Shown here one piece after another: positions 51,420-64,000 of a stretch of 64,000 nt of DNA. The notes under the pieces are model-generated. The model searched no databases and was not told the origin of the DNA. It saw only the letters and a program-made list of their open reading frames with translations. Position numbers and translations under genes: made by a program. How positions within the stretch are numbered: the first letter of the stretch is position 1; each line of letters starts with the position of its first letter. Source of the stretch: Thozetella sp. PMI_491 (taxonomy: Eukaryota; Ascomycota; Sordariomycetes; Chaetosphaeriales; Chaetosphaeriaceae); assembly GCA_021432635.1 (NCBI GenBank), contig MU270047.1, positions 655,112 to 719,111 on the forward strand, read 5' to 3'.

Positions 51420-54400
51420 TTAAAGAGCGTAAGGGTTTAGAGAGCGGATGGTCAAGCATCTATGCAAGTTAGTCAATGGCGTTGCCCCTAAGGGAGTCTA
51501 TCAGATAGGTGTACTTACGGGGGGCTCTTGGTCAAATCGGTCTTCAGGATGACCGGTACGCGAGTCATCTCAGTCACATCCTGAATGTACTCGCCACCCT
51601 CCTCGCGAAGCTTGAACAGCTTGAGATACTTCTCCTTGTTGGTGAGCTTGGACTCCGGAGCCTCGGCTTGAGGCACGCGGGAGTCGGAGCGAGCGCGGTG
51701 GAGAGGTCCGGGGGCATCGGACCGGACCGGTGAGCCGGGAACGCTCTGAGTGGGGCGTTCAGCCAGGGAAGCACCGGCCATGGCCTCGGTGATATCCGAG
51801 GCATTGTCATCATCGTCGTCAAACAAAGCATCGACATCATCCGTAGAGATGGTGCCGGTCTCAGTCTGCTTGCGAGCAGCCTCCTCGCGCTCCTTCTTAG
51901 CGCGCTCCGCCTCCTCCGCGTGCCGAGCGGCAGCCATGGCGTTGGACATTCTCTGGGACTGGGCGGCCTTGGGCCGCTCATCCTCGGGGACGTAGGCGGA
52001 GCTAGGCACGCCCTTCTCCCAGTACAGCTCGAGGACACGCTTCTCCTTGCGGAATTCCGCCTTCTTGAGGGGAAGCTGATCGCAGTGGACACGCTTCTCG
52101 AAGCCCCACTCAGGAATGAGCACATCAAAGGCCGACTCGTACACACAAACGACGATACCTTCGCTGATCAGGTCACCATTCGTCTGCTGGCGCTTCTTGT
52201 CCATCAGGCGGCACGACTCGATGTGGATGCTCTGTTCCTGAGCATTCTGAGCCGAGTCCTTCTTGGTGTTGCAAGACTCAACGGTCTTGGCCAGGTTCTC
52301 GAGATCTTCATTGTACTCGACTTTGCCGTCTACAGCAGACAAGATAGCGTCTAGCTGGCGGTGGACGATGACGTCCGCATACCGGCGAGTCGGGCTGGTG
52401 AAGTGGGTGTACAACGGCAGGTTCAGTGCATAGTGGGGCCACAGATGCTTGGGCGTCTTGGACGCGATGTAGTACTTCGCACGCTGCATCGTCTTGAGGA
52501 ACAAAGTCTCCATGCCCCTGCGGATTTCGGCGTCCTCGACCTTGAACAGGCTAGTCTGCAGGCTACCGCTGCTGACCGAGTCCATCTCGTAGCCAAGCGC
52601 TGTCATACGCTCGACAAAAGTCTGCAGGCGGCGAGGGTTCGGGGGAGATTGGCGGCGAAGAAGTGCCTTCTCCGGGAGAGCTTCAGCGAGGCGGTGGGCT
52701 ACGTACGTGTTGGCCTTGTGAATGATCTCCTCGACGATCTCGGTCGAAACGTCCGAGTCGAAGATGTTGTGCTTGATGGGGATGTTCTCATCGTCGAGTT
52801 GCTGGAGGAGGCGCAGGGGGGCCACAGGCTCGCCTCCAGCGCCCAGGCGCTGCTCGCGGAACTTCTGGCCAAGGACCTATAAACGAAAACGTTAGAAAGA
52901 GAGGCAAGGGTTAGGGGGGAGGAGAGGGGGGGGTTCCAAGCTTTGACAAACTCACGTTGAGAATCTGGATGTCCTTTACTTGCACGTGATCATGAGAGAA
53001 GCCCCCCTCGCTAGCAAGGGCCGCGTCGATTTGCGAGAGCGAAAGCTTGCCCTTGCTCTTGATAATACTCTTACCGATCCAAGTGTCGCTCTCCGCGACG
53101 GCGCCGCTGTGCGGGTTGACGTGGAAGACGACACTGATGGCCAGCCGATCGGCGCCGGGAGTGAGAGAGCAGATCTCACTCGACAGCTTGGGGGGGAGCA
53201 TGGCGCAGAACCGGTTCACCAGGTGCACGGCAGTGCCGCGCTTCTTCGCTTCGCGGTCCACGAGCGAGTTGGGCTTGATGAAGTGGGTGACATCGGGCAC
53301 GTGAATGCCGATCTCGATCTTGCCGTCGGCGAGGGTCTTGAGGTGAATAGCATTGCCGAGCTCAGTAGAGCCGTCCATGTCGAGCGTGAAGACATTTTCC
53401 TCACGGAAGTCGCGGCGAGCAGCAAGAGCGGCCTCGTCTTCCTTCTCGAGCGACCAATCCTGGTAGCCGACGTTCCGGAGGACAGCCTCGGAGAATTCGT
53501 CCGAAGAGAAGTTGTTGTCCCGCAGGAGAGCATCGGTCTCCACCTTCAGATCACCCATGCGACCGAGCTGCTCAACCAGAGTGCCGAAGGGATGAAGCGA
53601 GGTGATGGGCCAGCGCTTGATGCAAGCGACGAAGATGCGATCCGCATACTCCTGGTGCTTCTCGACAAAGTCACGGGGAGCTTGCTCGGTAGGGATGGCA
53701 ATCAGCGGCACGCGTTTGTCGGTCGGCTTGAACCATACAATCTTAGGCTTCTCGTTACCCCGGCTGTCGTTGTGTCGCGGGTTGTTGCCGTCCCTGGCGG
53801 CGCGCTCGGCCTCCTGCTTCTCCTTGGTGGCCTGGCTGCTGGGCCGCAGCAGGCCAAGCGTGCCCGAGAACATCTGGCCAGCCACACGCTCAATGACGGC
53901 CACAATATGGCCGGCATACAGGGGCTTCGACTCGTCGTTGATCTCCTCTTCCTCCACGAGGAGTAGGCTCTGGCCCTCAACTTCCACATCGTCGTTCTTC
54001 TTCTGAGTGGGGCGCTGTCTCAAGCTACCCCGACGACGAATGCCACCTTCACCGTTGGCACCGTCGTCTCCATTCGCATTGCTTTGGTTTCCTCCATTGG
54101 TGGAGCCGGAACGAGTGTCGGTGATATCCTTGCGCTTCTTCTTCTCTTCCTTTTCGCGCTTCTGCGACCAGACCTCGTCAACATCGAGGAGCTCGACGGC
54201 GACCAGATCGCCCTCGAGGGCCCGGTTACGGTCCTTGCTGCCACAAATGAATATGTCGGCATCGAGCAGGCCGTCCGGCGTCGCGACGTAAGCGTCGCTG
54301 CGGTTCTTCTTGTTCACGCGCAGGATGCCCGACACGAGCTGACCGTCGGTGAGAAGGGCGGGCAGCGTGGCCTGGGGAAGGTAGGGAGTGAACAGGGTCT

Positions 54401-55792
54401 TGCGCTGCTGTTGCTGAGGCTGCTGGGTATTGATCTGCGGAGCGTGCTGGCTGGCTTGAAGACCCACCAGGTGCTGACCACCCATCTGGGCAGCCTGGAG
54501 AGCCTGCAGCTGGCTGATCTGCATCTGGTTAAGCTGCTGGCCGGGGTAAAGCCCCGGAATCATCATCTGGCCGGGCATCTGAATGAGCTGCGGCTGTCCA
54601 GGATACTGGAAGGCGCCGATGTTCGATATCGACTGGTTTATCGAGCCGCGGCTGCGATGGCCGGGCTGGAAGCCCTGGTTCTGGACGCCGGGCTGGTCTT
54701 GGCCGTGATTCGGTGCCTGGTTGCGCCAGTTGCCATCGAAGTTGCGGGAAGACGAGCGGCCGTGTCCTGCAGAAAAGAGGCATCAGAAGCTTGCAACCAA
54801 AAAAAGGCGGAAAGGGGGTGTTAGCGGCAAAAAAAAAAACGTACCTCCTCGACCACCACGCCCGCTGGCGCCGACGGCAAGGCTCTGGCTTCTGCCATGT
54901 CCGCCTCGGCCACCTCGGCCAGCGGGCGCAACGGGCGCAGGCGCCTCCGCAGGAGGCTGCTCGGATGCCGCTGGAGTCTCGTCCGACTTCTCAGATTTAT
55001 CGCCAGCGGCACCCGGACCAGGGAACTGGAAGCCCTGGGTGGTGCGCTTCTGCTGGGCAGCTTCCGCGGCCTTCTTGGCCTCCCCTACAACTAAAGAATG
55101 TCTTCGCTGGTGGCCATGGCCGCCACCGCCCCGTCCTCCACGGGGAGCAAGGTTCTCTCTTCCTTGGCCTTGCGAGTTATCGTTGCCGAAGTTGGAGCCC
55201 GAGGCTCCTGAAGACGGGGCCGGCGGGGGTCCCATGCCCATATTGGGGAGAGCCGACTGATTACGGCGATGTGAGAGGGGTTGCGACGGCGGGCCCATGT
55301 TCACGCTCTGCTGGGGCAGCTGGGCGGGGAATTGGAAGCCGGCCTGGGGCGAGATGTTTGCCATGTTGGGCTGGAGGGGGTTGAAGCCGCCTGGGCCCAT
55401 GGCTTGGTTGGGCGCGAGCATGCCCATGTTGAGGTACTGTTGTTGGGTAGCTTGAATCTGCTGCTGCTGCTGTTGCAGCAGCTCGATCTGCTGCTGGATC
55501 GCGAGCTGTTCCACTGCGAAAGGGGGTCCCGAGTCAGCATTCCGTGTGGAGCTACGATGTTTTACCTTGGGAGGTTCAAGGAAAGAGGGGCTAGCCTGAT
55601 ACCGCGGTCGCTAAAACGGGGCAGGAGGAATGTGAAGCTTGGAGGGGCGAACCTACTTCCTGGGTTGGCGAACATGCTCATCAATGGGGTCAGCTCGGAG
55701 GGGCTCCTGCGGTGGGCGATGTGAAGCCGACGGCCGGCAGGGCCAGGGACGCCGCCCGTCTGGGGTGGCGGCTGCTGCTGCTGCTGGTCCAT
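51420..55792 (-). CDS. ssd1: Ssd1/GUL-1 translational regulator (inactive RNase II-like)
   Basis: Five exons on the minus strand: 55792-55657, 55513-54845, 54766-52956, 52876-51519 and 51459-51420, giving 1337 residues. The N-terminus is Gln-rich with RRLHIAHRRSPSELTPL, a conserved Ssd1 block. RGG repeats and LSHRRNQS-type phosphosites of the Cbk1/NDR kind (HxRxxS) follow. A cold-shock domain starts about FTPYLPQATLPALLTDGQL (residues ~400-470), then a second OB fold and the RNB domain. The catalytic RNase II aspartates are lost: the site reads FTLDMDGSTELGNAIHL near residue 735-745, where active enzymes have DLDDAL. The last exon is just 40 nt and supplies CLTIRSLNPYAL, which I recall as the conserved Ssd1 end. 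Ssd1 binds mRNAs for wall proteins, controlled by NDR kinase. Spacing of introns agrees in phase throughout. Confidence 0.95.
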
Positions 55793-58423
55793 GGCGGGCT
55801 GGCTTGTGTGCTGGCTGCGAGATCGCAGTCGCAGAAGCTAGCTTGGGAACAATGCACGTCAAGTGCGCCTGTGAGGCAAACCAGGGTTTGGAGTTGGTGC
55901 GGAGTTTGTGGACGGCTTTTTCGGGGAAGGCCTAGGCTTTTGACGGGCCGACCGATCAAGAAGAGCTGGAGCTGGGGGGCCCGGAGCTGGAGCTTCTGGG
56001 ATGGAGGCCGATGGGCTGGCTTGGGTTCTTGGTTCTTATAGGAGCCGAGATGAGCTGGGCGGGTTTTTTGGAGACGGTGGGATTCTGACACTGGAAAGGC
56101 GATGATGGGGGGATAGATGGAGTCGCAGTCGAAAGACAGTGTGCGGTGGGATCAATTCGCGAGTGTGTATCAAAGGAGGGCTGAATGAGAGGATGAAATC
56201 GAGAGACTCCGATGCGGGAGCTCGCAAAACCAGTCCTGGCAGTGGGAGAGGGAACGTGTGGGAGATGGGCAAGGAAAGGATGGTGGAGGAGGGAAGGTTG
56301 CAAGGACAGAGTTGGGTGGTTGATGGGTGGGAAGTTGTGATGCTGAAGAAGGAGGTCAGCGCTCGCCCCCCCCAGCTTGGCCTTGGATTCTGGCACTGGC
56401 TGGCTCCTGGCTGGCTCCTGGCTCCACCGCGCTCTGCTCCGTGACGGGGTCCACAAGGAGGGAAAAAGTGGGTAAGATCCGCCCGCACCTCTGGCTGGAC
56501 GACGACTCAGGGCTAGGCCGGAGGGGTCGCTGGACAAGAAATTGGGGTCGGCGGCATGAGCCGGCCGTGCAAACCTTCGAAGCCAGCTTGCACACTTGGA
56601 CCAGCTCGGCGAAACCAATTGTCTCTACACATGCGCCTGTGCCACCGAGGCAGAAAGGAACCTCTTTTGTCTGCCTGGCCATGGCTCGAATGGCCCCGCA
56701 GCAGATCCGGATGCAAGGCGCGGCGGGCAGGATCGTGCATGCTTGGTTGCTCATGCTGCTGAGGAGGCTCGCAAGCCAAACAAACCATGCCGCTTCGATG
56801 ACGCCGCCGCCCCGTTCGCTGGTGGCCACCCTGGCCGTCCGACCCATACTAGAAATAGAGTCGTCATCTGTCCTCAGGCGCTGGTATAGCAGCGCCTTCC
56901 CTAGCTTCGCCGTAACAGAGCGCATTCCTGCCCGCGGCTCTGGGAGACAAAGCCGGGTCGCTGATACGTGGACATGGGGGGGCCTCAAAAGTCTGGCGGC
57001 AGCTCCCTAGCGAACTAGCTTCCTTCCGTCCCCCATCTTTCGGATATTTCTGTAGGATGGGGGGGAGCTCTGGGGGGCGTGAGCCGGGGTACATGCACCG
57101 GGAGCCATTCGCGGTGTCTTACGCAGAGGCGGCTCGCTGCACAGACGCCCCTAGGGGTTGTATGGAGGGGACGGGCCACCAAGAAACCCACAACACATGA
57201 ACCAGCACAAAAGGGAGCCCCTCTTCCTCCCGACTCAGAGACGGCAGTTCGCCGCGTTAGCATGCCCGCGCTGCCGTCTATGATAACCTGGGAGGGCCCA
57301 GTAGGCCGCCAAAAGCATCGTACATAAGAGCTCTATTGCAGCACAAAGCAAGCGAAGTTTTGGGTGCTCCCTGATTTGGGGAGGGGGGTGACCCGGCAAA
57401 AACTTCTCTGCGTGCGCGTTGGGGGGACAAAGCATGGGATACGAGAAAGAGAGACCAGTGGGTGGCCTTCGCCAGTGTCCATGCTCCACACCCCCCCTGG
57501 TCGAGCCCAGGTCGGACTCCCGGACAACGCAAGGTAGCTTTCCCCATGGAAAGTCGGGGAGCAGCCGCGGGTACAGTAGTAGCACGAAGCAGAAGCGGAA
57601 TACCACAATGCGGCCGCATCGCGTGCGTGGTTGGGTGGTGCGAGTCGGGCGGCGCCAGCATGCAGGTAGACCCTCCATAGATAAGGTAGTAGATTGTATC
57701 TACCCGCCCAGCTCTCTTCCCTCAGAAACCTGGAAGAGATGAGTAGGGGGAAAAAGAACATCCTAGGCTCCGAAAGGGGGGCTGGTGCCTTCTCGATGCC
57801 TCGACTGACGTTGTTGGCGCTTCAGAGATCTGCTCTTGCCTTGGCCTCCGGGGTTTGGAGCAATGAAGGCTGCTGTCAACGAAACCTGTAAGTAGCCTTG
57901 CACACCTCCTCCCCCTTAGCCTTCTCCTTCCTGGTTCCAAACCCCTAGTGCTATAGCGCCTACGGAGCAGTGGGGGCACTGGGGGCCAATCCTTTGGCAA
58001 ACTGCTGTGCCATGAATAGCGAGCGGGTTGGGCGGGTTAGAATGCCCCCCAAACTCCTTCCCCACTTAATTGTCTTCTTCCACTCACCGCCCGCGGAATT
58101 CTGCCGCCAAACGCCAGATGTAGGTGAGGAATCGAACGCCGCGATTTGGGTGTGGTAGCAAACCGAACTACCAGCCAGAATCGCTCGCCGACGGTGTTCC
58201 TCAGCATTCCGCCCATCCCCTCGATCTCTACTAGCAGAGAGCTGCCGCGTCCGGACCGGAAAACTGGCGACCCTCTGCCTTGTCTATTCGCGGCGGCCCA
58301 TCTGTGAACAGCCGATTGGCACGTCCTGCTTTGGGGACCTGGGCTACCTCGCCCTCATTTCACGACGCGCTACATAGATATGTCCATATAGCCACTTGTT
58401 TACCCGAGACAGCAAACGCCGAG
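55793..58423. other. Divergent 2.6-kb region between Ssd1/GUL-1 and Gle1
   Basis: The Ssd1 5' leader and promoter (left) and the Gle1 promoter (right). Long frames such as 56327-57010 (+) and 55956-56618 (-) overlap antisense and have no recognisable family. CTGGCTGGCTCCTGGCTGGCTCC short repeats lie near 56394-56420. A tRNA B-box look-alike lies near 58128-58140 on the minus strand but no cloverleaf fits. Confidence 0.5.
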
Positions 58424-60140
58424 ATGGCAGACTCTTCGCCTGCACACCGGCGCAGCATGCCATTCTCTAGTCCCCAGCGATCGGTCCTCTCCGACATTAT
58501 CAGCGAGGACCGCAATTCTGAGGCGCGCCACAAGCTGCTGCTGGAGGCGGCCAAGCGGGAGCACGACCGGGTTCGCGAGGAGGCCGAGCGGGTCTACCGT
58601 TCGCACCTGGAGGAAGAGAAAAGAAGGCTTGCGGAGGAAGAGCGCAGGCATATTCTCGAGGAGAAGCGTAAGGAGGAGGAACGCATCAAGCGCGAAGAGC
58701 AACTTGCAGCCGAGCGTGCTCGGCTTCATGCGCTACGGTCCAAGAAGGTTGAGATACCTCCTCCGCCCCCCCAAGAAGCACCACGGCCCCCCGCAGCGCC
58801 GGCAAGTACAGCGACACCAACGGCATCGACAGATGTCGCCCCAGCCAGTGCCGCCTCCACCGCACCAAAGTTGCCAAATCTTCTCAATGGCGCTCAGAAA
58901 CCATCGCTCTTCGGCCCTAGTCCGTCTGCCACCGCTGCTGCCGCCGCCGCCGCGAAACCTGCAACTCCCACCTCGATCGCTCCCGCGCAACCTCCTGCCG
59001 GACTAGCCGCAAAACCTCCGCAGGCTGTCCGACCTCCCCCCTCTCTGCTGGGCGGTTCGGCGGGCGGGGCGCAAGGACAGCTGGCTAACGGAGCGCCCCA
59101 GCCTGCCCCGAAGACCTCAAGTCAGCAGCCAGACAGATATACCATCATATTCCGGAACCTAAAGGCGTTGAGGAAAGGAATGCAAGATCAAGCAAAGAGA
59201 AATTCGGCACTCAAGGGCCGCATGGGCGACATGCGGCGTGAGGTCAAAAAGTCCATCGGCCAACTGGTCGGTGGCGCCCCCGGTGTCAATCGTCAGCAGG
59301 TAAGCGAAAATGTCCTATCCTCGACTCTACTGGTCTCTGTGCTGACTCTATCTGCCTTAGTCGCAGAAGATCACCTCCATCTTGAAGGAGGCATTGGCGA
59401 ACCAGGTTGGCAGTCAGCCAATCGACGCCAGTAACTTCGTCCTAGCACCACGGCAGCCAGTCGAAGGCTCTCTTCACAACGAGCCCATGATGCCGTCGCT
59501 GTTCATCTACCTACTCAACATTGTTGCCAAAGCAGCCATCGCCCAGTATATCAACGAAGCTGGGCCAAAGCCCGAGGCAGCGGACCCCGTCGGCATCCTC
59601 GTTGCAGCAACCTTCTCGGAGACCGAGTTTCTTTGGCGTGGCGAGTCACTCATCGACATTCTACTTGCCAAGTTCAGGGTTATGTGTCCAGTCCTCTTCG
59701 GATACCGTGGCAACGAAAAGATGGAAGGAGGGCGCGAGGCCTTGGGATGGAGGAAGGAGAACGGCCGCTGGGTTTCCGAGCAGACACACATCGACCGGAT
59801 GCAGGGCCTGGGCGCTGGCTTCGCGTCCATTGCGCTACGCAACTTCGGCAAGTCCAAGAAAAAAAATCCTTTCCCGCCGCGGAACTACTGGACAGCCCTG
59901 GCGAAAATCGTCAATACGCCACCCGCGGAGGTCTCCAACACACAGTGCGTGGTCTTGAAGGCCATGATCGCCAACTTCGAGCAGAAATTCCTCGAGGCTT
60001 ACGGCAACGCGGCTGTGGCAGCCCTGCGGGTCGCCCTTGTGGATTTTCCCAACCGGATTCCCTACAAATCGTCAGCGGTGACATCTCTGACAGTGCAGGC
60101 CCAGCTCATGAGCAGAGACTACGGTCTAACTCTCGCATAG
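58424..60140 (+). CDS. gle1: mRNA export factor Gle1
   Basis: Two exons, 58424-59299 and 59361-60140, with a 61-nt intron, giving 551 residues. The N-terminus (MADSSPAHRRSMPFSSPQRS) is followed by a long charged coiled coil, about residues 40-110, from EARHKLLLEAAKREHDRVRE to KREEQLAAERARLHALRSKK. A proline/alanine-rich linker follows. The C-terminal GLE1 domain starts near RNLKALRKGMQDQAKRNSA, then SILKEALANQVGSQ, PSLFIYLLNIVAKAAIAQY, VGILVAATFSETEFLWRG and CPVLFGYRG, all typical. Gle1 with inositol hexakisphosphate activates the DEAD-box ATPase Dbp5 at the cytoplasmic face of the nuclear pore. Lysines in KSKKKNPFPPRNYWTALAKIVN fall where the IP6-contacting basic region is expected. An upstream in-frame ATG at 58280 is less likely as the start. 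An AATAAA lies about 310 nt after the stop. Confidence 0.93.
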
Positions 60141-60531: not shown

Positions 60532-61332
60532 TCAAATCGCCAAGAGGAGGATGAGCAAGATGATGAGCACAACAATGAGAACCCCTATGCAGCAGCTGCT
60601 CAGTCGGTCCTCATTGTGCCGCATCACGTACTTGAGCTTGTCCATGCCCGTCTGCAACCGGCCGCCGACGCGATCTGCCAAGTTGTCAACGACCTCGAGC
60701 ATCTCCCTCTGCTCTTCCAGCTCCCGGCCCATGTCGTCGGCCTGGCGCCGGAGGTTCCCGACCGTTTGGAAGACGCCGTCGAGGTGGTCGTCCTGCTCGC
60801 GCATCATCTGCACCTGCTGCTGCTGCTCAAACTCGGCCGCGTAGTCGTCGCCGCCGGTGTCGCCGTCTGCAATTGCGAACGAGTTCGGGTCCGGGAGGTC
60901 GCCGCCGGCGCCGTCCCGTGCGCCCCCTCGCGGCTGCACCTTCTTGGCCAGCTCCTCGCGCATGTCCCCAATCTCTCCGCCGACCTCCTGCACCAGGCGC
61001 TTGCGCCTTGCTACCTCGGCCGTGCTCAGCCCGAACTGCGCCGGATTGCTCTCGACAGCCCGGACGGACTCGACCAGATCCGACAGGTCCTCGGCGAGTG
61101 AGGCCAAGGCAGATTCGAGATCGGATCGCGCGGATGCCAGCTCTGGGGAGGCGGCCGTTGTGGTGAGCGATCGTATGCGGACATAGGACGAAAAGAGCGA
61201 GCGGGTGGATTGTATCTGGGCCAGGACATCTCTGGTTGAGGACGGTTAGCACTAGTTTGCACGAAGCATGCGCGCCTGGGGAGCTCACTGTTGGACCTGG
61301 AGGAACGGGTCCATCTCGTTTGTCGACGACAT
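60532..61332 (-). CDS. tlg1: Tlg1/syntaxin-6-like Qc-SNARE
   Basis: Two exons on the minus strand, 61332-61289 and 61231-60532, with a 57-nt intron (GTGAGC..CAACCAG, CTAAC branch), giving 247 residues. The start is MSSTNEMDPFLQVQ; the DPF.VQ opening is the mark of the syntaxin-6 family N-domain, completed across the intron by QDVLAQIQSTRSLF. A three-helix N-domain runs to about residue 110. A Gly/Asp linker follows, then the SNARE motif from REQDDHLDGVFQTVGNLRRQADDMG. The ionic-layer glutamine lies in ELEEQREML. The C-terminal anchor is CCIGVLIVVLIILLILLLAI. Tlg1 acts in fusion at the late Golgi and endosomes and binds the GARP tether in yeast. Confidence 0.9.
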
Positions 61333-61812
61333 CGTGTCGCAGTGATATGCGCAGCGAGGGAAGGCTCCAACCGTGTCGTTCGGAAGGTTCGCGGCAGCGA
61401 GTTGCTATCACAGGCAAGAGGTCTTCCGGAAGACAGCGCGTGCGACTAGGCTGAGCCGTCCTAAGATGACGTTGCCGGCTTCCGTGTGGTCAAGCAAGAG
61501 CGGAACTACACATCTACACTCCAGGGGTGGCTGCAGTATCCTCAACGCCAGCTCCCCCCACTTCTTGCTGTAAGCAGCACGGCCTATTCGCTCAGGCTGG
61601 GGAGCTTTACCCCTGCAAAGACCCCGACTTTGAAACGTAGCTTCCACTCTGGCCTTTCAATCCCGCCGCCATCCCGCCACCATATCCTCAATTGGCCCGG
61701 AGACCCCCCCTCCCTTCTCACCGCTGAAGTCACAGACTCTTTTGAGCCTTCCCTGTCTCTCCCATCCATCCCAATTATCCTTCTCGACATTGTGCATTGC
61801 AAGAGAGCCAAG
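61333..61812. promoter_or_regulatory. Divergent promoter region between Tlg1 and the ER cyclophilin
   Basis: 480 bp upstream of both genes. A TGACGTT element sits at about 61466-61472, related to but not matching the canonical unfolded-protein response core. A long C/T-rich stretch (61640-61800) precedes the cyclophilin ATG. A frame open across the start (61486-62148 +) only extends the real exon upstream. Confidence 0.45.
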
Positions 61813-62610
61813 ATGTTGAACATCCGCCGTCTGTTCCTGACGGCGACGCTGCTGGCCGGCCTTGCTGTCCTGTGCTTCGCCCAGACCGCTGACGCCGCCA
61901 AGGGCCCCAAGATCACCCACAAGGTCTACTTCGACCTCACCCAAGGCGATGAGCCCCTCGGTCGTGTCGTCCTTGGCCTTTACGGCAAGACGGTTCCCAA
62001 GACGGTTGAGAACTTCCGCGCCCTGGCCACTGGCGAAAAGGGCTTTGGTTACGAGGGCTCGACCTTCCACCGTGTCATCAAGAACTTCATGATCCAGGGC
62101 GGTGACTTCACCAAGGGCGACGGCACCGGTGGCAAATCAAGTACGTGAAGTCAATTGATGGCCAATCGCGGGGCTACCGTTGTATATGCAGAGCCCAGAT
62201 GCTGACACAGTGTCTCAGTCTATGGCGAGAAGTTCGCCGACGAGAACTTCAAGCTAAAGCACACCAAGAAGGGCATTCTGTCGATGGCCAACGCCGGCAA
62301 GGATACCAACGGCTCGCAGTTCTTCATCACCACTGTCATTACCAGGTAAGCATTACCCCTATCTCCTCTAACCCCCGGTCCCTCGCCTGGCGTACCCCGC
62401 GGTTGTAAGCTCGTCGCTGACCAGGTCCTTTTCCACAGCTGGCTTGACGGCCGCCACGTCGTCTTCGGCGAAGTTCTCGAGGGCTACGAATTTATTGAGA
62501 AGATCGAGTCCAGCGAGACCAGCCCCGGCGACAAGCCCGTGAAGACGGTCAAGGTCGCCAAGAGCGGCGAGCTGGAGGTTCCCCCAGAAGGTATCCACGT
62601 GGAGCTTTAA
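61813..62610 (+). CDS. cypB: ER cyclophilin (peptidyl-prolyl isomerase B), lumenal HVEL form
   Basis: Three exons, 61813-62140, 62219-62345 and 62439-62610, with introns of 78 and 93 nt, giving 208 residues. A signal peptide is present ([28 protein letters not shown]). The cyclophilin core has [14 protein letters not shown], the active-site segment [20 protein letters not shown] with the catalytic arginine, [11 protein letters not shown] (after intron 1), NGSQFFITT and [11 protein letters not shown], whose tryptophan confers cyclosporin binding. It ends [16 protein letters not shown], whose last four residues resemble the HDEL/KDEL retrieval signal. A donor GTATCC begins 20 bases before this stop, allowing a second C-terminus (see the next entry). 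Proline isomerisation in the ER lumen is the expected role. Start and frame are certain. Confidence 0.93.
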
Positions 62611-63065
62611 AACTTTCCCTCTATGACACAGAACCTCGCGTGTGTCATATATCCTCCCCCCAGTCTCCCCATCGAGCAGCACACAAGACTAGGCAACGGA
62701 ATTGCATGGGTCGTATACAATGTACAAGAGACAAGGGGAGATAAGCTTAGAAGCCTCCTGTGAAGAAAAAAGACAGCCGTCATCTGTGTTCTCTCCATAC
62801 TGCCAAGTCTGATTTTGTCGGTGTTGTACTGATTCGCTATCTTTCCGGCACTCTAGAATCCCTCTATGGCAATGCAGGATGGGCATCCGGTGTCTCCGAC
62901 GAGATCGACGACCCCGTTCCGGTGAAGCCCGATGCCAGCTGGACCGTCTTCCAGAAGGCCTTCTTTTTTGTCCTTATCCTCTCCGCCGTGGCCCTCTACC
63001 TCAGGATTTCCAAGAAGCGCCAGCTGAACAACCCGGCTTACGAGAAGGCATCCAACCTGGCGTAA
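61813..63065 (+). CDS. cypB: ER cyclophilin, alternative transmembrane form (spliced 3' exon)
   Basis: Exons 61813-62140, 62219-62345, 62439-62590 and 62857-63065, the last intron being 266 nt (GTATCC..CACTCTAG), giving 271 residues in frame. The luminal domain is unchanged up to VPPE. The HVEL tail is then replaced by [20 protein letters not shown], a short linker, a membrane segment [20 protein letters not shown] and a basic cytosolic tail [10 protein letters not shown] ending NLA. The positive residues after the membrane segment fit type I orientation with the isomerase domain in the lumen. I recall that fungal cyclophilin B proteins of both kinds, soluble and anchored, are annotated, but cannot verify it. 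AATAAA at 63471-63476 is about 405 nt after this stop. Which form is made, and when, needs transcript data. Confidence 0.8.
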
Positions 63066-63587
63066 GAAAAGAAAGGTGGATACCCATGCACTCCGTATAG
63101 CGATCCTCGTGACTTATAGATAGACTGGCTACAATGCGTAGGGCAGACGTTTGCAGTCGTTCGAGCCCTTGCTTGACATCTGCTGGTCGGGATTCTCGGG
63201 AAGGGTGCTAGCATTGGCTTGACTAGTGCTGCTGCACATCTGGATACCATTGCTTTGACATGTATGAATATCAAATCACGTCCGAAGCGGGCAGTTTGAC
63301 GGTATGTTAAACCGAAATCTGTACTATTTTGTCCAACCATGCCCTCCCCCGCCCCTCTTGCAGCCCTGTATCCCTTGGCCGTCATCTACCGGTGGCATGG
63401 TGTCGTAAAGCAACTCGAGGCAAGCAAGTTGACTCGGGTCGAGTGTTGGGCGGACCTACAAGCTTCTCTCAATAAAAAGATAAAAACGCACAACGCGCTG
63501 TTGACAAAGACTGTGGGATAAAACAAGGGTGTGCATGTCTATAAGGTGCTGTGGCCAGCTCGATTTCCAAGCCTACGAATCAGACGC
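63066..63587. other. Convergent 3' region
   Basis: 522 bp between the stop of the long cyclophilin form (+) and that of the PFK2-like gene (-). It holds AATAAA at 63471-63476 (+). No gene seen. Confidence 0.5.
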
Positions 63588-64000
63588 TCAGTCCTCGTCC
63601 GCAACTTTGTCGGCAATAGCTTCGGCTGCCTTGTTTACCACCTTCTCCGGCGGCCTCGTAACCACTACATCCACCGGCTCGGCAGGGCTGCTTAGACCCG
63701 GAATTGGGCTCAGATTCCCAGTTGGCGTCTGCAGCACAGGGATGCGAATATCCTCAGGGCTCCCCGGAACTATCTTGGGGTCCAGCCCAGGGATGTGGAT
63801 GCGCTTGGCCTCGTTTTGATACGCGGCAGGGATAATCTCGATGATTTCGTCGCGAGGAAACTTAAGTTTAGGGATGTCCCTAGTGCTGCAATGCATTTGG
63901 TAGGCATAGAGCACGCGGAGTACGCTCTCGTGCGCAATGATCAGGAGATCGCTCTGTTCACGCTCAAGTTCGAGAATGACAGGCTCAAGTCGCACCGCCA
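63588..64000 (-). CDS. 6-phosphofructo-2-kinase/fructose-2,6-bisphosphatase, C-terminal end (partial)
   Basis: The frame is open from the right edge of the window to the stop at 63588, giving the last 137 residues or so. The visible part is the end of the histidine-phosphatase (FBPase-2) domain: RLEPVILELEREQSDLLII, then AHESVLRVLYAYQM, whose histidine is the second active-site His of the family. DIPKLKFPRDEIIEIIPAAYQNEAKRI follows, a highly conserved stretch of fungal PFK2/FBPase2 proteins. The C-terminal tail is Pro/Val-rich and ends DKVADED. The enzyme makes and/or breaks fructose 2,6-bisphosphate, the regulator of glycolysis. The kinase half lies beyond the window, so whether it is bifunctional cannot be told here. 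Confidence 0.9.
   Translation of the reverse strand, partial: AVRLEPVILELEREQSDLLIIAHESVLRVLYAYQMHCSTRDIPKLKFPRDEIIEIIPAAYQNEAKRIHIPGLDPKIVPGSPEDIRIPVLQTPTGNLSPIPGLSSPAEPVDVVVTRPPEKVVNKAAEAIADKVADED

Follow-up and report, generated by a model that had tools for sequence, protein, structure and literature searches.

In the fungus Thozetella sp. PMI_491, the gene for an ER-type cyclophilin has two well-formed endings, and we consider it likely that both are used, one gene yielding a soluble and a membrane-anchored cyclophilin B. The gene was found in a stretch of 64,000 nucleotides of contig MU270047.1 (the window), and all positions are counted from the first letter of that stretch. If the last intron is kept, or if polyadenylation takes place within it, translation would stop at GIHVEL and give a soluble lumenal enzyme with ER retrieval via HxEL. 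Splicing of 62591-62856 would instead lose the retrieval signal and add 69 residues consisting of an acidic linker, a short helix and a basic tail, and the spliced form would be membrane-anchored with its active domain remaining in the lumen. We posit that both mRNAs are made, that the KDEL receptor reads HVEL, and that the ratio of the two forms matters. A first-pass annotation of the same DNA had proposed that one gene makes two proteins here; the two endings are indeed present in the sequence, and that both proteins are made is what we infer from them.

The gene structure is given in Table 1. The product appears to be an ER-type cyclophilin B, composed of a putative signal peptide and a PPIase domain. 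The domain matched PF00160 in a Pfam search of the protein (5.6e-49, profile positions 2-157 of 159), and the closest solved structure was 8k0f_C, a chain named PPIase B (7.7e-84), with PPIase B-type chains outranking A, C and F types among the best 60 of 161 structure matches. The N-terminus is hydrophobic and signal-peptide-like by hydropathy and insertion energy, and the extent of the signal peptide (about residues 1-29) is an estimate from these two measures rather than predictor output. The cyclophilin family is represented by 16 exon-wise matches across the 72.3 Mb genome. At least 577 relatives of the soluble protein were found in genome contigs, where the 80 examined were all bacterial by title (55-68% identity), and none were found in viral contigs. 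The gene is whole and lies about 0.9 kb from the contig end (window position 64000 is contig position 719,111, the last of the contig). Divergent from it, on the minus strand, is an ORF at 60532-61245 that ends in a long hydrophobic anchor and by eye resembles a syntaxin-6/Tlg1-like SNARE, and the region 51515-60140 holds ORFs that by eye are SSD1/Dis3-like (minus strand) and GLE1-like (plus strand); all of these names are putative.

Table 1. Features of the ER cyclophilin gene and its two endings (positions in the window; a slash marks the exon-intron boundary).
Feature	Position	Strand	Basis or remark
ER cyclophilin gene, whole	61813-63065	+	
Exon 1: start codon, putative signal peptide, first part of PPIase domain	61813-62140	+	donor CAA/GTACGT
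Intron 1, 78 nt	62141-62218	+	intron-finder call
Exon 2: PPIase domain	62219-62345	+	codon score, translation
Intron 2, 93 nt	62346-62438	+	intron-finder call
Exon 3 to alternative donor: end of PPIase domain	62439-62590	+	domain match, codon score
Read-through ending: G completed, then I H V E L, stop	62591-62610	+	HxEL-type putative ER retrieval signal
Alternative last intron, 266 nt	62591-62856	+	donor GTATCC, acceptor CTCTAG; intron finder, also with intron held out
Branch-site-like CTGAT, 24 nt 5' of acceptor, A at 62832	62829-62833	+	short-consensus match only
Exon 4: predicted membrane-anchor tail, 69 codons and stop	62857-63065	+	codon score, shuffles, single copy
Predicted membrane helix, 23 residues (231-253 of spliced form)	62940-63008	+	insertion energy
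Basic tail of 20 residues, predicted to be cytosolic (net charge +4)	63003-63062	+	charge count

From position 62590 the gene has two open continuations, a read-through of 208 residues in total and a spliced form of 271 residues. On re-check, the start of exon 3 at 62439, the donor at 62591, the AG at 62856 and the 69-codon exon were all placed correctly in the first-pass annotation, and both of the in-frame outcomes described there, read-through to the HVEL stop and the spliced extension, have open frames.

The read-through ending is encoded by CAC GTG GAG CTT (62596-62607) with TAA at 62608-62610. HVEL, read as a KDEL-like ending in the first-pass annotation, has an HxEL form that is rare before stops, and other ER-type proteins of this fungus end in that form. 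In a six-frame sample that included the gene's own stop, [KRH]xEL preceded 7 of 12,804 stops and HxEL only 2 of 12,804. Scanning 25 loci of the same genome for [KRHQ]xEL before a stop gave seven matches, two of which belong to the cyclophilin gene and three to ER-type proteins, while the remaining two (loci L008 and L113) were chance-like. The three ER-type frames end in HNEL in an FKBP locus and in HDEL and HEEL in two Hsp70 loci (L112, L116, L120), and we take their products to be FKBP22-, BiP- and Lhs1-like, respectively. Together they suggest a putative HxEL code in Thozetella sp. PMI_491. The cyclophilin's HVEL fits this form, and its reading by the receptor is putative. V is not known to be among the residues that the PROSITE pattern for KDEL-like signals allows at its second position. 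Elsewhere, HVEL of mouse Ces1d is called a functional retrieval sequence in the source consulted (PMC5818367), and the ER FKBP of Neurospora crassa is listed with a C-terminal HNEL (PMC1618848).

The last intron was called by a finder combining a coding score, a branch motif and an iterated donor matrix, which yielded 60 introns in 264 kb of the fungus's own genome, among them 62141-62218, 62346-62438 and 62591-62856; these intron sets are computed rather than observed, with a length limit of 300 nt. When every candidate in 62560-63065 was removed from the training set, 62591-62856 was the sole candidate called there (13.9 against a threshold of 11.5). The donor (GT at 62591-62592) is weak. 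Held out, AAG/GTATCC scored 4.37 bits, where the median donor has 7.04, and 7 of the 60 donors scored no higher; the value obtained when the intron trains its own matrix (5.94 bits, 16 of 60 no higher) is flattered. This check thus weakened the donor, kept the intron call and left our estimate for the use of both endings unchanged. Of the ten GTs in 62439-62610, only the donor at 62591 is in phase 1, and it also has the top score. Its position +5 is not a G, which also holds for 8 of the 60 finder introns. A weak donor is to be expected if splicing is partial. The donor sits six codons before the stop, so that, as had been remarked in the first-pass annotation, splicing would delete HVEL. The acceptor (AG at 62855-62856) is ordinary, 32 of 60 acceptors scoring no higher, and is the first AG 3' of the CTGAT motif. 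The intron had also been described as the longest in the window; it does exceed the gene's two others, and the broader claim was checked on the 264-kb computed set, where three others among the 60 are at least 266 nt long under the 300-nt limit.

With stops penalised, the codon score marks the intron as non-coding in all six frames. Inside it are polyadenylation-type motifs (TGTA at 62721 and 62825, AAGAA at 62763), which are weak evidence. The choice of ending showed no sign of regulation in RNA folding or in an Rfam search: in three stretches near the splice sites, 34, 47 and 98 of 200 shuffles folded equally well or better, and Rfam gave no matches at the gathering score within 61400-63600.

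Exon 4, which ends with TAA at 63063-63065, has the character of coding sequence. The codon model was built from 45 long ORFs in 264 kb of the same genome. In the frame set by splicing it gave exon 4 +0.298 bits per codon (20.3 bits in total, GC3 0.79), and in the five other frames the scores were negative. Exons 1, 2 and 3 scored 0.37, 0.61 and 0.40 bits per codon (with limits one base off), and the 415 bases 3' of 63065 were negative in all six frames with stops penalised. None of 5000 base shuffles reached the score of exon 4, and among 4047 equally long stop-free windows, which include true genes, 7.1% scored at least as high. In 3000 dinucleotide shuffles of 62591-63490, a phase-1 ORF of 60 or more codons preceded by branch and acceptor arose in 237; with a hydrophobic 19-mer (mean hydropathy of at least 2.0) it arose in 2, and with a coding-like score in addition, in 0. 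A separate ATG-started gene at this place was ruled out because the open frame 62751-63065 contains no Met.

An in-phase coding-like exon also lies downstream of 19 of the 75 coding-like ORF ends sampled, with a hydrophobic stretch in 2 of the 19, and an ORF end followed by such an exon is the ordinary appearance of an intron. The main rival to dual output builds on this, namely that the last intron is constitutive, that only the anchored cyclophilin is made, and that HVEL is a chance ending or a relic of an ancestral soluble form. Exon 4 is coding-like, its splice sites are usable, and any intron that is read through must end somewhere, all of which agrees with constitutive splicing. On the other hand, the scarcity of [KRH]xEL before stops makes HVEL in an ER-type protein improbable by chance, and the donor is weak and the intron long. 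We regard constitutive splicing as unlikely. The same two-ending arrangement was seen after none of the three genes ending in HNEL, HDEL and HEEL, one of these loci having only 231 bases downstream.

The converse explanation is that the gene yields nothing but the soluble HVEL protein, exon 4 being left over from an anchored form or never spliced on; this seems very unlikely to us. It would accord with the weak donor and with the survey of Pemberton (2006), in which N. crassa and Gibberella zeae are each listed with one ER cyclophilin of 22.6 kDa, described as 'PPIase only' (PMC1618848); the N. crassa entry there, Q7S7Z6, is marked as manually re-annotated (22.6 kDa), with no reason stated alongside (PMC1618848). 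A relic should decay, however, and exon 4 retains a coding signature in the exact frame with no stop. UniProt appears at one time to have listed an N. crassa cyclophilin B that is longer, at about 285 residues; if so, the anchored form may already be in annotation elsewhere. Use of another acceptor such as the AG at 62877, a variant of the dual reading in the same phase whose tail would be seven residues shorter, leaves 62 codons and 19.9 bits with the same donor, but it is highly improbable, as no branch-like motif lies within the scanned distance upstream and 62856 is the first AG past CTGAT.

Under the dual-output model that we favour, the 69 residues would serve as a membrane anchor. The 23-residue helix has a predicted insertion energy of -1.4 kcal/mol. 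No segment of the soluble domain does better than +4.0, and a SNARE-like anchor from the same window, taken as control, gives -4.3 (parameters entered by hand). The linker 5' of the helix is acidic (net charge -5), and together with the charge of +4 on the tail this means that the PPIase domain would face the lumen. The 'clear membrane helix' and basic tail of the first-pass annotation are thus borne out as one predicted helix and a tail of +4, the former tempered by an uncharged core of only 15 residues. Such a core suits ER or early Golgi membranes and, because the helix is short, we posit that the anchored form would stay there. A C-terminal KKxx is absent from the tail. The tail also reads NPAY at 63036-63047, a match to the NPxY motif of endocytic sorting that may be chance. 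The tail is a single-copy sequence, the search of its own genome finding only itself; no relative emerged from 23 pattern matches in viral contigs and 194 in prokaryote genome contigs, and the tail had no Pfam or NCBIfam match.

Taken as read from the DNA, each ending appears unlikely to have arisen by chance alone, and a single weak donor of the correct phase lies between them. The use of both is the simplest account. What sets the case apart is HVEL and the weak donor jointly, not the downstream exon itself, and this anatomy supports both endings as putative functional protein ends. It is possible, if doubtful, that a single splice decision further sets the lumenal versus membrane share of ER cyclophilin by removing the retrieval signal and adding the anchor. 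If dual output is true, a single gene does a job that budding yeast divides between separate genes, and a fungal ER cyclophilin so far listed as a simple PPIase has a membrane form. That form might act on membrane-protein clients, in the way that NinaA does on rhodopsins. The exchange of a retrieval signal for an anchor in a housekeeping chaperone would then be a compact and testable case and, if it also responded to ER stress, a splice-controlled switch of folding capacity.

Drosophila NinaA is a membrane-anchored cyclophilin of the secretory pathway, encoded by a separate gene, with rhodopsins as clients. To our knowledge, neither NinaA nor Cpr4 of Saccharomyces cerevisiae has an alternative soluble ending. 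Cyclophilin B (PPIB), placed in fungal orthology Group G by the Pemberton survey (PMC1618848), shares with the Thozetella protein the signal peptide, the PPIase domain and the ER location (predicted here), whereas the Thozetella gene has a second, predicted membrane-anchored ending. The same survey lists S. cerevisiae Cpr4 as an ER cyclophilin, gives it a putative membrane domain and places it in Group H, which it finds only in Saccharomycotina (PMC1618848). Cpr4 is likewise a secretory-pathway cyclophilin with an anchor (predicted only in the Thozetella gene), yet it is a separate gene rather than one gene with two endings, and the Thozetella gene is not placed in Group H.

We recognised no report of a dual soluble and anchored cyclophilin ending in our searches of an open-access library, and the main texts of RNA-seq splicing surveys of two fungi (PMC9801653, PMC8475275), as far as consulted, contain no cyclophilin. 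Splice-dependent localisation is already known in fungi, while its retrieval-signal-for-anchor form was not found in that library. Fungal cyclophilin A genes are described as producing mitochondrial and cytosolic isoforms by alternative splicing (PMC3688495); there, too, a single cyclophilin gene serves two compartments via splicing, although the paralogue and the compartments are different. In S. cerevisiae, PTC7 is described as giving a spliced or an intron-retaining mRNA from one gene, with products at two locations (PMC3597508). In the Thozetella gene, too, both predicted mRNA forms would be open to a functional protein end, as judged by sequence. The PTC7 intron stays open to translation when retained, and the product of that mRNA is directed to the nuclear envelope (PMC3597508); in the cyclophilin gene, by contrast, retention would terminate the protein at a soluble ER signal, and the anchor would come from splicing.
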